NCBI GenBank assembly: GCA_017538685.1
Contig: JAFYIK010000155.1
Span: 1 to 5,799 of the forward strand
Direction: 5' to 3'
Source: Bacteroidales bacterium
Lineage (GTDB): Bacteria; Bacteroidota; Bacteroidia; Bacteroidales; UBA932
Length of the DNA: 5,799 nt
Part shown: positions 446 to 4,847 of the stretch, piece by piece
Layout of the letters: each line of letters begins with the position of its first letter
How positions within the stretch are numbered: position 1 is the stretch's first letter
Notes under the pieces: model-generated
Databases searched by the model: none
Told to the model about the DNA's origin: nothing
Seen by the model: the letters and a program-made list of their open reading frames with translations, nothing else
Made by a program: the position numbers and the translations under genes

Positions 446-1639
446 CTATTGCAACCAGAGTTCGGGGTCCTGGGGGTCGGTGATGTGCCAGAGCTGGAAG
501 TGGAGCTGGGTTTCGCCGGAGATGGTGTCCACTGAGCCGAGGATATCGCCGACATTGACTTTGTCGCCGGTGTTCACGCGGACGTCGTGGAGTTTGCAGT
601 AGAAGGTGTAGTAGTCGCCGTGCTGGACGAGCACGCACTGGTTGTATCCCGGCATCATCGCAACGTTTTTCACCGTGCCGCCGAAGACGGCCTTGACAGG
701 CTCGTTGGTGGCGGTGGCAATGTTGCAGCCGTTGTTGAACGGCATCTTCACGTTCGTGTAGACGGGATGATTGTGCTGGCCGTACTGCCAGACCACCGTG
801 CCCTTGACGGGCCAGGGAAGTTTGCCCTTGTTGGCGGCGAACTCGTTGGAGAGCTTGATGTCCGCCTGGGTCTTGGGGCTGCTCTTGCCGGTTGTGCCCT
901 TCTTGGCCTTTTTCTGGGCTGCGGCCTCTTTGGCCACTATGTCCCTGATGGCCTTGTTCAGCGCCTCGACCTCCTTCTGCTTCTTGGCTATCTGCTTTTC
1001 GTAGGAGGATTTGTTGCGCTTGAGCTTGTCCACCATCGCCTTCTCGTTCTTCTCGTCCTTTTTCAGGCTCTGAAGCTCGTCCGAGCGCGCCTGGAGCAGC
1101 GCCTCTTCCTCAGCGCGAAGCGAGTCCAGCGCTGCCATCTCACGCTCGAGGTACTCCTTCTGCCCGCGTATGTCTTTTGCCTGCGCGCGCATATCCTCCG
1201 ACACGCTGTGGAGGTAATTGTAGCGCCTGAGCATCTGGCCGACGTCTTTTCCGGAGAGGATGTAGGTCAGCCACATCTTCGTGTCGCGGTTCACATAGGC
1301 TTGGCGGATGAGCAGCTCGTAGGCATCCAGCATCATCCGGTAGCGCTCCGAGGCCTTCGAGATGTCCTTCTTTTTCGCTCCGATTTCTTTATTGGTAGCG
1401 TCTATCTCACGGCTCAGCTCGGCGGCGAGCTCCTTGCCGGCGGCGATCTTCTTCCGCGTGAGCGTCAGCTGCGCCGCGGCGTCCGAGCTCTTGGCCTCGT
1501 TGGCCTTGATCTGCTTGTCGAGCTCCGCGATTTCGTTCTGCACTTTCGTGAGCTTCTTCTCCATACCGGCCTTGGTGTCGCCGAAAGCGGGGACGAGGGC
1601 CAGGGCAAGCAAAACGGATATGCAGATCAGTCGTTTCAT
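446..1639 (-). CDS. EnvC-like murein hydrolase activator: exported coiled coil plus degenerate LytM (M23) domain
   Basis: The 397-residue protein starts with a signal peptide (MKRLICISVLLALALVPAFG, cleavage near residue 20). A long charged coiled coil follows at about 22-245, a low-complexity Lys/Thr/Ser hinge at about 240-262, and a LytM/M23 domain from about 272 to the end. Active M23 enzymes bind zinc through HxxxD and HxH and have a further histidine in a YxHL motif. Here the first site is NNGCN (302-306), so both ligands are asparagine; the YxHL position is YCKL (K349); and the last motif is QLHF (378-381), with only H380 kept. It should therefore be catalytically dead and, like EnvC, act by activating cell-wall amidases at division. 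Its ATG overlaps the TGA of the upstream TPR gene (ATGA, 1636-1639), so the two are co-translated. The amidase partner is not in the window. Confidence 0.9.
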   Translation of the reverse strand: MKRLICISVLLALALVPAFGDTKAGMEKKLTKVQNEIAELDKQIKANEAKSSDAAAQLTLTRKKIAAGKELAAELSREIDATNKEIGAKKKDISKASERYRMMLDAYELLIRQAYVNRDTKMWLTYILSGKDVGQMLRRYNYLHSVSEDMRAQAKDIRGQKEYLEREMAALDSLRAEEEALLQARSDELQSLKKDEKNEKAMVDKLKRNKSSYEKQIAKKQKEVEALNKAIRDIVAKEAAAQKKAKKGTTGKSSPKTQADIKLSNEFAANKGKLPWPVKGTVVWQYGQHNHPVYTNVKMPFNNGCNIATATNEPVKAVFGGTVKNVAMMPGYNQCVLVQHGDYYTFYCKLHDVRVNTGDKVNVGDILGSVDTISGETQLHFQLWHITDPQDPELWLQ

Positions 1640-3009
1640 TTCTTGAGGAGCTTTGCTTCGTACAACGACTTATAATATAGTGCGAGTTCCTTCTCTCCCA
1701 GCGCATCCAGCACCAGGTAATAGTGATACAGCACGGTCTCGTTGTCCTTTCCGCCGTAAATCATAGCCTTTTTGAAATAAGTCTTCGCCTCGGCCGGGCG
1801 CTTCAGCAGATAAAGAATGTAGCCGTAGGTGTCCAGGGAATTCACGTTGTCCGGTTCCGCCTCCACCGTCCGGCGGCTCATCTTCTCCGCCTTCAGGAGG
1901 TTGCGCTTCTCCAGCGAAAGGAAATAGGCGTAGTTGTTCAGGGTCATAAGGTTGTCCGGGTCTATCTTCAGCGCCTTTTCGTAGGTGCGGAAGGCCTTGC
2001 CCTTCTTCCCCAGTTTATAGAGACAGTCGGCCTTCAGGCTGAGCAGCTCCACCTTCTGCTTCGGCTGCTTGAACCTCTTCAGCGCCTGGTCGCAGGCCTC
2101 CACCACCTCGGCGTCCGTGCCCTCCGAGACGATGATGGATATCCACAGCATCTCGGCGTTGTAGTTCCACGGGTTGGTCTCCCTCCACTGCTTGAACAGG
2201 GCTATGCCCTTCTCCTTCTGGTCGGTCGAATAGAACCACTGCCCGGCGGGCACCAGCGCGCACGAGTCCGTGGGGTGAGTCTGGACGAACGCGTCCATAA
2301 TGCCGTCGATCTGCTTGTGCCACACGCGGTAGGTCGGCCCGTCCAGCCGCTTGACCACCTGCTCCAGGTAGGAGCATTTAACGTCCGCGGTCAGGTAGAT
2401 CGCCCGCATAAACGCCTCCACCGTGGTGAAATAGCCCAGATAATTGCCCATACTGAGGCACAGCTCGGCCTTTCCATACAGCGCCGGCGGATATTCTTCG
2501 TCGGCCGCGAGCGCTTCTTCGAAATAGCGCAGGGCCAGCGAATCGTTGCGCTCCTCCAGCCATTCGTGCTGAGCCAGCCTCACTAGCGCGAAGGGCGTAC
2601 GGAACTTCCGGGGGAAGCGGACCGCCATCTCGCAGATCAGCGAATCGGCCGTTTCCTCCGCGCCCATACAGCTGTATGCGGAGTACAGCCCTTCGTAGTA
2701 GCTGGCGTTAGTGGGGTCGAGTTCCACGGCGCGCTCCAGGTCCCGGGCGGATTCCGTGCAGCGCCTGAGCCCGAGCAGGCTCATCCCGCGGTAGTACCAC
2801 AGCGCGTCGTCCAGCGAATCGGCGGCCATCAGGGAATCGAGCGCGGAGAGCGCTTCTTCCAGCCTGCCTTCGCTGACCATAAGGCCCACGTCCGTGATAT
2901 CCGTGCCTATGGGCACATACGGCCCCGGTTCCTCCGTGAGCTGCTGCCCGCGGAGGCCGAAGGAAAATGCGAGAGCCGCAAGCGCGGCTAGAAGAGTTCT
3001 TCGGGCCAT
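1636..3009 (-). CDS. Exported tetratricopeptide repeat (TPR) protein
   Basis: The protein has 457 residues from the chosen ATG. Residues 1-21 (MARRTLLAALAALAFSFGLR) are a signal peptide, so it is exported to the periplasm or its membranes; no lipobox cysteine is seen. Helical TPR-like units run through the rest. The clearest are at 37-100 (EALSALDSL, then WYYRGMSLLGL, ending ERAVELDP), 155-190, 320-352 (KADCLYKLGKKGKAFRTYEK, ending ALKIDPDN) and 355-420 (NNYAYFLSL, TYGYILYLL). TPRs are protein-interaction scaffolds; no catalytic motif is seen. A TTG nine bases upstream would extend the frame by three residues but overlaps the -7 promoter box, so the ATG is preferred. The gene is first in an operon with the EnvC-like gene, overlapping it by 4 bp. 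Work on the envelope or with the EnvC-like protein is inferred from this coupling only. Confidence 0.88.
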   Translation of the reverse strand: MARRTLLAALAALAFSFGLRGQQLTEEPGPYVPIGTDITDVGLMVSEGRLEEALSALDSLMAADSLDDALWYYRGMSLLGLRRCTESARDLERAVELDPTNASYYEGLYSAYSCMGAEETADSLICEMAVRFPRKFRTPFALVRLAQHEWLEERNDSLALRYFEEALAADEEYPPALYGKAELCLSMGNYLGYFTTVEAFMRAIYLTADVKCSYLEQVVKRLDGPTYRVWHKQIDGIMDAFVQTHPTDSCALVPAGQWFYSTDQKEKGIALFKQWRETNPWNYNAEMLWISIIVSEGTDAEVVEACDQALKRFKQPKQKVELLSLKADCLYKLGKKGKAFRTYEKALKIDPDNLMTLNNYAYFLSLEKRNLLKAEKMSRRTVEAEPDNVNSLDTYGYILYLLKRPAEAKTYFKKAMIYGGKDNETVLYHYYLVLDALGEKELALYYKSLYEAKLLKK

Positions 3010-3015
3010 CTCCCA

Positions 3016-3023
3016 CAAAAATA
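3016..3023 (-). promoter_or_regulatory. Predicted -7 box (TATTTTTG) for the TPR-envC operon
   Basis: Read on the minus strand this is TATTTTTG, a full match to the TAnnTTTG -7 element used by the primary sigma factor of Bacteroidota. Its last G lies six bases before the ATG of the TPR gene, so the transcript would start at or next to the start codon (leaderless or almost so). No clear -33 TTTG is seen about 20 bp upstream, so the call rests on the -7 box and its position in the only intergenic gap. Confidence 0.55.
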
Positions 3024-3058: not shown

Positions 3059-3613
3059 ATGCGTATGCAACTTTTTGGAGGCAAATCGCATCTTAATACG
3101 TGGTTGGAAGACGCAAAGTCCGGCGACCGTCGGGCCCAGAAAGCGATCTACGATATGCTGGCGGACAAAATGTTCGCCGTTTGTCTGCGCTATATGGGAG
3201 ACCGCGACAGCGCGCAGGATGTATTGCAAGACGGGTTTGTGACCCTCTTCAATAAGTTGGACACCTACCTGGGCGAAGGCTCTTTCGAGGGCTGGGCCCG
3301 CAAGATCTTTGTAAACACTGCGCTGATGTCCCTGCGAAAGCACGACGTGCTGAAGCAGAGCGACGACGTGGAGGAGGCGCGCGGCATAATCGCCGACACC
3401 CCTTCGGCCACGGCCCAGATCGGGTACAAGGAGCTGCTCAAACTGATAGCCGCTCTGCCCCCGGGGCTGAGGACCGTTTTCAATATGTATGTGATCGAAG
3501 GATACTCCCATAAAGAGATAGGAGAGGCCCTCGGGATCTCGGAAGTGACGTCGCGCTCGCAGCTTCAAAGAGCCAGGGTGACGCTGCAGAAAAAGATCAA
3601 AGAAGAGTATTAA
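3059..3613 (+). CDS. ECF-type RNA polymerase sigma factor (sigma-70 family)
   Basis: The 184-residue protein has the two-domain layout of ECF sigma factors. Region 2 is at about 24-95 and includes the MFAVCLRYMGDRDSAQDVLQ segment (38-57), F60, the SFEGWARKIFVN stretch (75-86) and R93/K94. Region 4 is at about 126-180, with LPPGLRTVF (133-141) and a helix-turn-helix YSHKEIGEALGISEVTSRSQ (149-168), then the LQRAR recognition-helix end. There is no sigma 1 or sigma 3 domain. The frame is open further upstream, but that part is the antisense of the TPR gene and crosses the promoter. The start is therefore placed at the ATG at 3059, with an ATG at 3065 as the alternative. The stop is one base before the next gene (TAAGATG), so the sigma factor and its likely anti-sigma factor are translated together. 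Its regulon cannot be read from the window. Confidence 0.93.
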   Translation: MRMQLFGGKSHLNTWLEDAKSGDRRAQKAIYDMLADKMFAVCLRYMGDRDSAQDVLQDGFVTLFNKLDTYLGEGSFEGWARKIFVNTALMSLRKHDVLKQSDDVEEARGIIADTPSATAQIGYKELLKLIAALPPGLRTVFNMYVIEGYSHKEIGEALGISEVTSRSQLQRARVTLQKKIKEEY

Positions 3614-3614
3614 G

Positions 3615-4847
3615 ATGCGTAAAGACACAAATAAGGATTTAGACCTCCTCTTCAAGGAGGGCCTCGAAGACGCCGCGGTGAAAGCACCCCGCGGAGTCTG
3701 GGAGGCCGTGTCTGCGCGTCTTGATGCCGCGGCTCCTGCCGCCGCAGCCGCCCCCAAACGGTCGTGGCTACTCTGGGGGGCGCCTGCGTTTGCCTTTGCG
3801 GCTGCGGCTCTCGCCGTGGTTCTCGTGGTAGGCAGAACAGACAAAACCATCATCAGCTCGGGCGAAGAAATCGTCGCCGTCGCGGACGCTCAGCCGTCAG
3901 GCCCCGTCGCGCTGGCGGACGAGACCGCCGATCAGGTCAGTGGTGACGCATTGGTCGCCGCCAACGTTTTGCCCGTCACGTCCAACGCCAATCGTTCATC
4001 CAATATCGGAGTTCGCGCCGATTACGTTCCGAAAGAGGTTCAGAATCCCGATCAGATTACCGTAATACCCTCTGTCATTCCCGACACGGACGTTATTCCC
4101 GAATCCAACCCTAGTGTCATTCCCGACACCGATCGGGAATCTGATGATGTCGTTTCGAACGACCCTTCTGTCATTTCGAGCGAAGTCGAGAAATCTTTCT
4201 GGGCCGATGTTGAGGCTGAACCGGCGAAGCGTTCGGGCGGCCGTGTTGCCCTGCAGGCCGGCGGCATTACGGGAGGAAACGACGCGCATATTCAGATTTC
4301 GCGTCCCGCATTCTCCAGCGGTCTTCCGTCGGAGGGAATCCAGGAAAACACTCCTTCTTATTACCACGTCCCCGTGTCCGTAGGCCTCGGCGTACGTTAT
4401 TATTTCACTGATAAGCTTGCGGCAGGTGCGGGCGTGAACTGGTCGTTCCTGACCAGGGAGTTCTCGGGCAAATACAAGACCGAAGAAGGAACCTTCACGC
4501 ACAACCTTCAGTATGTCGGAATCCCCGTGTCTGTGTCGTACGACGTGGTGAACAGCAAGACCCTTCTGTTCTACTGCTATGCAGGAGGAAGTGTGGAGAA
4601 GGCCATCTCGAGCAAGTATTACATTTACTCCGTCAACTCTTCGCCGCTTCTTAGCGAAGATGTGCCGTCGCTGCAGTATGGCCTGCTCGGAGGTATAGGC
4701 GTGGAGTTCAGGCTCTCTGACCGCATCGGTCTGTACGCGGATCCGGGCGTGAAGTATTACTTCCCCGGCAACCAGCCGAAGAGCGTGAGGACAGACAGGC
4801 CGCTTATGTTCAGCCTGGAAGCCGGTCTGAGATTCAATCTTAAGTAA
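3615..4847 (+). CDS. Dual membrane-spanning anti-sigma factor: cytoplasmic motif, TM helix, disordered linker, outer-membrane beta-barrel
   Basis: The 410-residue protein has four parts. Residues 1-49 are a short charged cytoplasmic segment with a DLDLLFKEGLED helix (8-19) and a P-x-x-VW motif (25-29), the likely sigma-binding part. Residues 51-73 (WLLWGAPAFA onward) form one hydrophobic helix with K48/R49 on the inner side. Residues 74-207 are an acidic, Pro/Ser/Asp/Val-rich linker without predicted fold. Residues 208-410 show alternating beta strands typical of small outer-membrane barrels (HVPVSVGLGVRYYF, YVGIPVSVSYDVV, QYGLLGGIGVEF, FSLEAGLRFNL). No cleavable signal peptide is seen; the helix would remain as an anchor. 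This order matches the Dma anti-sigma factors I recall from Bacteroides thetaiotaomicron, paired with a Das sigma factor. The one-base spacing to the sigma gene supports the pairing. The linker holds palindromic DNA repeats in frame. Binding to the sigma factor is inferred, not seen. Confidence 0.85.
   Translation: MRKDTNKDLDLLFKEGLEDAAVKAPRGVWEAVSARLDAAAPAAAAAPKRSWLLWGAPAFAFAAAALAVVLVVGRTDKTIISSGEEIVAVADAQPSGPVALADETADQVSGDALVAANVLPVTSNANRSSNIGVRADYVPKEVQNPDQITVIPSVIPDTDVIPESNPSVIPDTDRESDDVVSNDPSVISSEVEKSFWADVEAEPAKRSGGRVALQAGGITGGNDAHIQISRPAFSSGLPSEGIQENTPSYYHVPVSVGLGVRYYFTDKLAAGAGVNWSFLTREFSGKYKTEEGTFTHNLQYVGIPVSVSYDVVNSKTLLFYCYAGGSVEKAISSKYYIYSVNSSPLLSEDVPSLQYGLLGGIGVEFRLSDRIGLYADPGVKYYFPGNQPKSVRTDRPLMFSLEAGLRFNLK
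4074..4195. repeat. Cluster of short palindromic repeats inside the anti-sigma linker
   Basis: GTCATTCCCGACAC occurs at 4074-4087 and 4116-4129, 42 bp apart. The core ATTCCCGA occurs at 4077-4084, 4095-4102 and 4119-4126. The third copy forms a perfect 8-bp inverted repeat with TCGGGAAT at 4133-4140 around a 6-base loop. A related element starts at 4170 (GTCATTTCGAGCGAAG) and closes with TCGAGAAAT at 4186-4194, giving a partial hairpin. All copies are in the same coding frame. They encode SVIPDTD twice (residues 153-159 and 167-173) and SVISSEVEKSF (185-195). Elements of the form GTCATTcccg...cgggAATC and GTCATTTCGAGCGAAGTCGAGAAATC are, from general experience, common dispersed repeats in Bacteroidota genomes, usually between genes. 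Confidence 0.75.
4119..4140. repeat. Perfect inverted repeat, 8-bp arms and 6-base loop
   Basis: ATTCCCGA (4119-4126) and TCGGGAAT (4133-4140) are exact reverse complements separated by CACCGA. The hairpin lies inside the anti-sigma reading frame and is not followed by a T-run, so it is not read as a terminator. The form resembles ATTCCC-N-GGGAAT repeats, such as dRS3 of Neisseria, though no relationship is claimed. Confidence 0.8.

Follow-up and report, generated by a model that had tools for sequence, protein, structure and literature searches.

The locus analysed here raises the question of whether one protein can hold a sigma factor inside the cell and, at the same time, reach the outer membrane. 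The window, that is, the whole stretch of DNA under study, covers 5,799 nucleotides of a Bacteroidales contig and carries on its + strand an open reading frame for an ECF sigma factor (3059..3613, counted from the ATG at 3059 chosen by the first-pass annotation). One base downstream, as that annotation had stated and as we find, begins a second gene (3615..4847, + strand) that encodes a 410-residue candidate anti-sigma factor of the Dma type. In this gut bacterium, the off-protein of a gene switch seems to extend from inside the cell across both membranes.

The architecture initially proposed for the partner, a short cytoplasmic segment, a single transmembrane helix, a linker and a C-terminal barrel, is confirmed, the helix being now placed at residues 50-77 (3762..3845, +). 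The N-terminal cytoplasmic segment (residues 1-45; 3615..3749, +) contains two helices in the predicted structure and constitutes the putative sigma-binding domain. Beyond the membrane helix, a disordered tether (residues 78-209; 3846..4241, +), whose pLDDT values stay for the most part under 50 as far as residue 187, leads to a predicted eight-strand, OmpA/OmpW-like beta-barrel of the outer-membrane type (residues 210-410; 4242..4844, +). The pLDDT of the three N-terminal helices is only about 45-76. Among 77 aligned sequences the tether is 101-199 residues long with a median of 134. The partner found no match in the PDB by sequence search up to an E value of 10, its profile gave weak scattered PDB matches only (best E 0.058), and Pfam yielded nothing for its N-terminal segment at E values of 1 or less. 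The NCBIfam model NF052375, named "anti-sigma factor", aligned with residues 19-95 at 17 bits (E 0.0045), below its cut-off of 100.

Conservation is uneven along the protein. In the 33 closest rows of the alignment, mean identity is 0.89 in the N-terminus (residues 1-50), 0.88 in the transmembrane helix and 0.73 in the barrel, and variability is concentrated in two slots of the tether (0.17 and 0.13). Between these slots lies an island (residues 134-152; 4014..4070, +) whose identity is 0.70 in the same rows and 0.14 in distant ones. Judged from these alignments, the tether appears tolerant of changes in both sequence and length.

A total of 127 proteins match the partner at E up to 1e-3 (7998 candidates scored), and of 199 genomes sampled within the G001 family, 171 encode relatives, many of them matching in the barrel only. 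The genomes compared are drafts, and the six named loci from the genome collection are all from Bacteroidales MAGs. The best-match set was composed of these six loci, the 30 best family matches and the window, and contains 35 distinct loci, L023 being a repeat of L001. In 33 of the 35 the partner gene immediately follows a homologous sigma gene of the same orientation, as it does in all 20 weaker family matches, which were selected by hand. Overall, the pairing is found in 53 of 55 loci and the other two (L050 and L052) end at contig ends. Both the pairing and the order of the domains are thus established at the sequence level.

These data bear on a rival reading, in which the partner is a conventional outer-membrane barrel whose unusual export signal is cleaved after the hydrophobic stretch, leaving the barrel alone and the sigma factor free or otherwise controlled. 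The names of homologs, where the sources give them, would agree with it, since they are only "PorT family protein", "outer membrane beta-barrel protein" or "hypothetical protein". However, a long segment (37-62 residues in the 77 sequences) precedes the hydrophobic stretch and is conserved like the transmembrane helix, unlike the tether slots, and the gene is constantly found right behind the same sigma gene. We regard this reading as very unlikely. PorT of type IX secretion is exported as a barrel and lacks an N-terminal regulatory segment. The conserved 50-residue N-terminal segment and the sigma pairing set the partner apart from PorT, and homologs bear this name because the barrel domain is common to both. 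One family member, P0069 (473 residues), has an unrelated membrane N-terminus joined to the tether and barrel of the partner family, and is probably an assembly chimera.

The domain order found in the partner is that of the Dma class, which has been studied in Bacteroides thetaiotaomicron. According to the available part of PMC13088901, Dma proteins consist of an N-terminal anti-sigma domain, a transmembrane helix, a long disordered tether and a C-terminal barrel, and are encoded next to an ECF21 sigma gene. The same part of that source describes an operon composed of BT_1559 (das2), BT_1558 (dma2), BT_1557 (DUF4943), BT_1556 (DUF4858) and then BT_1555, the latter predicted to be similar to enoyl-ACP reductases and nitronate monooxygenases (NMO). 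It also reports that das2 rises upon deletion of dma2, and that Dma/Das affect PUL and OMV in this species.

Since a second protein search, run with the alignment, showed no named Bacteroides protein among the matches listed, Dma2-type operons were sought through DUF4943. This domain is present in 13 of 393 Bacteroidales genomes, and two of the ten DUF4943 regions examined (L138 and L139) carry homologs of both the sigma factor and the partner. The Pfam order in L138 is sigma, barrel, DUF4943, DUF4858 and NMO, and the order of the open reading frames in L139 is the same. Both loci were called Dma2 type from this gene order and stand in for the B. thetaiotaomicron sequences in the homology comparison. 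The window sigma factor is 41% identical to that of L138 (E 7e-44), and the barrels of the window and L139 share 27% identity (E 1e-17). A profile comparison between the partner and the Dma2-type proteins reached a probability of 99.7 (E 4.5e-26) and covers the barrel only, the N-terminal segments showing no alignment at profile level.

Since L138 and L139, with their das2-dma2-DUF4943-DUF4858-NMO order, encode homologs of both proteins, the window pair very probably belongs to the recently described Das/Dma class. The partner has a single transmembrane helix followed by a long disordered tether, a predicted C-terminal barrel, two predicted and conserved helices where Dma proteins have their anti-sigma domain, and homology to the Dma2-type proteins of L138 and L139 in the barrel only, while its gene is adjacent to a sigma gene related to the das2 type. 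This supports the first-pass annotation, which had recognized a Dma-like architecture and pointed to this class, by both operon homology and conserved pairing. As far as the available text of PMC13088901 allows comparison, the window system has in common with that of B. thetaiotaomicron the putative anti-sigma segment, helix, disordered tether, barrel and adjacent ECF sigma gene, together with homologous sigma and barrel sequences and signs of autoregulation, which are the rise of das2 in a dma2 deletion there and the promoter-like motif upstream of the sigma gene in this system. The differences concern the next gene, which is a convergent nrdG in the window and in L001-L005 but DUF4943 in B. 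thetaiotaomicron; the regulon, with lipoproteins, an M6-type protease and outer-membrane proteins predicted here versus the PUL and OMV effects; and the palindromic repeats in the tether, a feature of the window lineage unlike the B. thetaiotaomicron Dma.

All these features can be assembled into a working model. The N-terminal helices of the partner would keep the ECF sigma factor bound to residues 1-49 and so confined to the inner membrane, and the transmembrane helix and flexible periplasmic tether are predicted to link them to a barrel that would be inserted in the outer membrane, so that the protein would be anchored in both membranes simultaneously. An outer-membrane event would be relayed along the chain and free the sigma factor. 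Free sigma is predicted, from conserved sites, to transcribe from TGCAAC-N16-GCATCT both the operon that encodes it and a limited number of genes for exported lipoproteins, outer-membrane proteins and a protease. In FecR-type cell-surface signaling, a TonB-dependent transducer and a separate anti-sigma factor pass an outer-membrane event to an ECF sigma factor. The window system would share with it the relay of such an event to an ECF sigma factor; however, receptor and anti-sigma factor are separate proteins in FecR/TonB systems and one chain here.

The conserved island would fit a different way of transmitting the signal, namely the regulated cleavage of the tether of a dual-membrane anti-sigma factor instead of a mechanical or conformational pull, with residues 134-152 acting as a protease site or a contact site with the cell wall. 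The preservation of this island between two highly variable slots in close homologs speaks for this proposal, but the island is lost in distant homologs, and the window sequence QNPDQ is replaced by QTPDQ, QAPDQ or QTPEQ in most of the close homologs listed. Regulated cleavage is less likely than not. RsgI proteins undergo self-cleavage at an Asn-Pro bond. Since the Asn of the partner varies among its homologs, an RsgI-like self-cleavage was rejected as unlikely.

Outside the island, the tether of the window is partly built of dispersed palindromic repeats, all of them on the + strand and in frame. A type B repeat is present as a partial, reversed copy (3930..3947, read as DQVSGD), as a left half (4074..4085) and as a full copy, GTCATTCCCGACACCGATCGGGAATCT (4116..4142), read as VIPDTDRES. 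A full type A repeat, GTCATTTCGAGCGAAGTCGAGAAATCT (4170..4196), is read as VISSEVEKS. Each of the four elements analysed is open in five of its six reading frames. The dispersal of the repeats was counted in the genomes of relatives. Type A (up to three mismatches) has 18 copies in G004, three in G003, three in G001 and none in the other three genomes, whereas type B has ten in G001, ten in G002, three in G003, six in G005 and none in G004 and G006. A variant found in the tether of L004 occurs 56 times in G004 and once each in G001 and G006, a few of its places coinciding with type A matches. Reversed-pattern controls gave zero for all repeat searches. Some of these copies lie within the partner gene (2 of 10 in G001, 1 of 10 in G002 and 2 of 56 in G004).

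Repeat peptides are present in the tethers of 41 of 68 close homologs and in the N-terminus or barrel of none of the 68, and tandem growth is seen in the tethers of P0040, P0050 and L004. Distant homologs have tethers of similar length and no repeat peptides (0/49). The search expressions were written after inspection of the linkers, and P0069-P0071 were excluded from both groups. The sequences indicate that in the window lineage the tether was lengthened by in-frame dispersed palindromic repeats and by tandem duplication. The linker of such a regulator can accordingly take up mobile palindromes with the reading frame kept.

Other genes have also received these elements. Ten open reading frames of G004 carry a repeat copy, and the five compared with Pfam all match known families (VanZ, nucleotidyl transferase, Mur ligase, chorismate synthase and methyltransferase), the repeat falling inside the Pfam match in the chorismate synthase. 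In G001-G003, 18 of 20 examined copies lie within an open reading frame of at least 120 amino acids, as called mechanically. Since repeats sit in frame inside other genes, the tether is, on this genomic evidence, one tolerant site among many. The recurrence of repeats, halves and tandem growth at different places of the tether, together with the location of two of the ten type B copies of G001 in the partner gene alone, could instead indicate that the repeats are selected to tune tether length or charge, beyond mere tolerance. However, the same lineage has in-frame repeats in other genes, enzymes included, so that tolerance suffices; the peptide counts come from expressions that postdate inspection of the linkers; and distant tethers attain similar lengths without these peptides. 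Selection is therefore unlikely, and we retain tolerance as the explanation.

Several G004 loci (L010, L011, L014, L015, L016 and L020) show in-frame dispersed palindromes inside conserved genes; the methyltransferase has several insert-like stretches, and L016 was judged by eye only. A type B repeat also occupies apparently the same place of an RNase R-like reading frame in L156 and L164 (from G001 and G002), according to a by-eye reading. In-frame palindromes are known from Rickettsia (RPEs), as intragenic REPs, and from other bacteria, as described in the accessible part of PMC3733652. The window repeats resemble those RPEs and intragenic REPs in being short dispersed palindromes, single or paired, that are read in frame in genes of varied function, and differ, within what that part of PMC3733652 covers, in their occurrence in rumen Bacteroidales and in the repeated use of one disordered regulator tether. 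Although the repeats are short dispersed palindromes in the genomes of relatives, they lack the CGTC tag of one described REP group, both full window copies beginning with TGTC. A literature search for in-frame repeats in Bacteroidales brought up nothing recognised beyond the part of PMC3733652 considered.

The window contains a single exact copy of the predicted ECF autoregulatory promoter, TGCAAC-N16-GCATCT (3066..3093, +); another stretch, 426-453, fits it with two mismatches, no more than chance would give. The motif was read by eye from upstream sequences and then counted on the same 34 distinct sequences (33 loci and the window). All of them have TGCA(A/G)C-N16-GCATC before the sigma gene, always with a spacer of 16 although 13-19 was allowed, and these sites make up 34 of the 36 occurrences of the loose motif on both strands of those loci (327,798 strand-bases). 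The further loci and the genome counts are independent tests. Outside the defining set, the motif is present in 16 of 20 loci, again with a spacer of 16. As written, it is absent from L205, L206, L209 and L213; by eye, TCATC occupies its place in L206 and L209 and another variant does so in L205, while L213, a 35% identical paralog, has no motif. The sigma genes of L138 and L139 have TGCAGC-N15-GCGTCTAA at the corresponding place.

At the genome scale the motif co-occurs with the partner. Twelve partner-bearing genomes contain the exact pattern 69 times, including the 12 sites of the sigma genes themselves, versus three times for the reversed pattern, and 20 further genomes with the partner contain it 33 times (reversed, 7). 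Twenty genomes of the same family without the partner contain 7 (reversed, 20), and the difference between the two groups of 20 is significant (Mann-Whitney p 1.3e-4). The partner-bearing genomes of both groups were hand-picked, and the 20 partner-less ones are those listed of 28. In the 20 further genomes, an exact site lies just before the listed partner gene in three (G007, G016 and G139). The conserved site predicts that the sigma pair is autoregulated. No promoter signature for the Dma class was found in a literature search that covered PMC13088901 in part and did not cover the founding 2024 PNAS paper. The motif, the regulon predicted from it and a tether partly made of dispersed repeats are additions to the first-pass annotation.

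The position of the motif also bears on the start of the sigma gene, since it overlaps codons 3-12 of the frame counted from ATG 3059. For this reason, and because the motif sits farther upstream of the sigma gene in most distant homologs and its spacer in close relatives varies in a way that alters the encoded protein, we consider the alternative TTG at 3104 the more likely initiation codon of transcripts that begin at this promoter. Another promoter, further upstream, may give rise to a longer sigma product.

Target genes were assigned as the longest reading frame starting within 260 nt of an exact site, and export was judged by eye. The close genomes G001-G005 have 31 exact sites, 30 of which lie ahead of the sigma gene or of a gene for a putative exported protein that opens with a signal-like or lipobox-like stretch. 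The lone unexplained site (L098, in G003) precedes just a 76-residue reading frame. Five target groups are present in 5/5 close genomes, the first being the sigma gene itself. The others are a lipoprotein with a VWA domain (Pfam VWA_4); another lipoprotein, of about 400 residues and assigned to no family, whose reading frame in G005 is just 118 amino acids; an M6-type metalloprotease 68-232 nt downstream of the site, barely over the Pfam M6 cut-off and under that of NCBIfam; and an outer-membrane-like protein with SMYDAY after a signal-like start. Five of the 30 sites, those of the SMYDAY type, are doubtful because in all five genomes they are located within the coding end of the upstream gene, about 190 nt away. 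The remaining five close-genome sites precede small barrel-like proteins (L108 and L091) and lipoprotein-like proteins (L058, L092 and L096).

Seven distant genomes, with 38 exact sites, give a mixed picture. Besides sigma genes, these sites precede an M6-like reading frame (L057), small barrel-like proteins (L060, L066 and L112), a SurA-like protein identified by Pfam (L086) and a radical-SAM-associated lipoprotein (L101). LpxD begins 139-230 nt after a site in four of them (L075, L076, L102 and L115), two with near-identical sites. Other sites have no clear downstream gene (e.g., L064, L103, L113 and L116) or lie inside coding sequence (L105 and L114). The LpxD and SMYDAY-type groups are weak members of the regulon. 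An envelope programme under control of the motif is the best reading of these predicted sites, firm for the close genomes only. The control targets of a Dma-type regulator are now directly testable, because one family has relatives in 171 of its 199 sampled genomes, the promoter-like motif is sharp and the list of predicted targets is short.

A more specific idea is that the anti-sigma factor is itself a client of outer-membrane assembly. The inserted barrel would keep sigma off through the tether, failed insertion or damage would turn on the envelope programme, and in-frame mobile palindromes would reshape the length of the tether. We advance it tentatively, as rather less than probable; if true, Bacteroidales would have an equivalent of the sigma-E response built on a single chain.

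The surroundings of the pair are conserved as well. L001-L005 share the neighbours of the window, the pair being flanked by genes for an EnvC-like peptidase and a TPR protein at one end and by those for NrdG and NrdD at the opposite end. Their sigma factors are 96-97% identical to that of the window, but the partner is only 59-69% identical. At the left end of the window lies a gene for a HicB-family protein (110-442; Pfam HicB, E 7e-18), with no partner seen. The genes for the EnvC-like M23 peptidase and the TPR protein (446-3018) are back to back with the sigma gene, an arrangement kept in L001-L005, and may share an intergenic control region with it.
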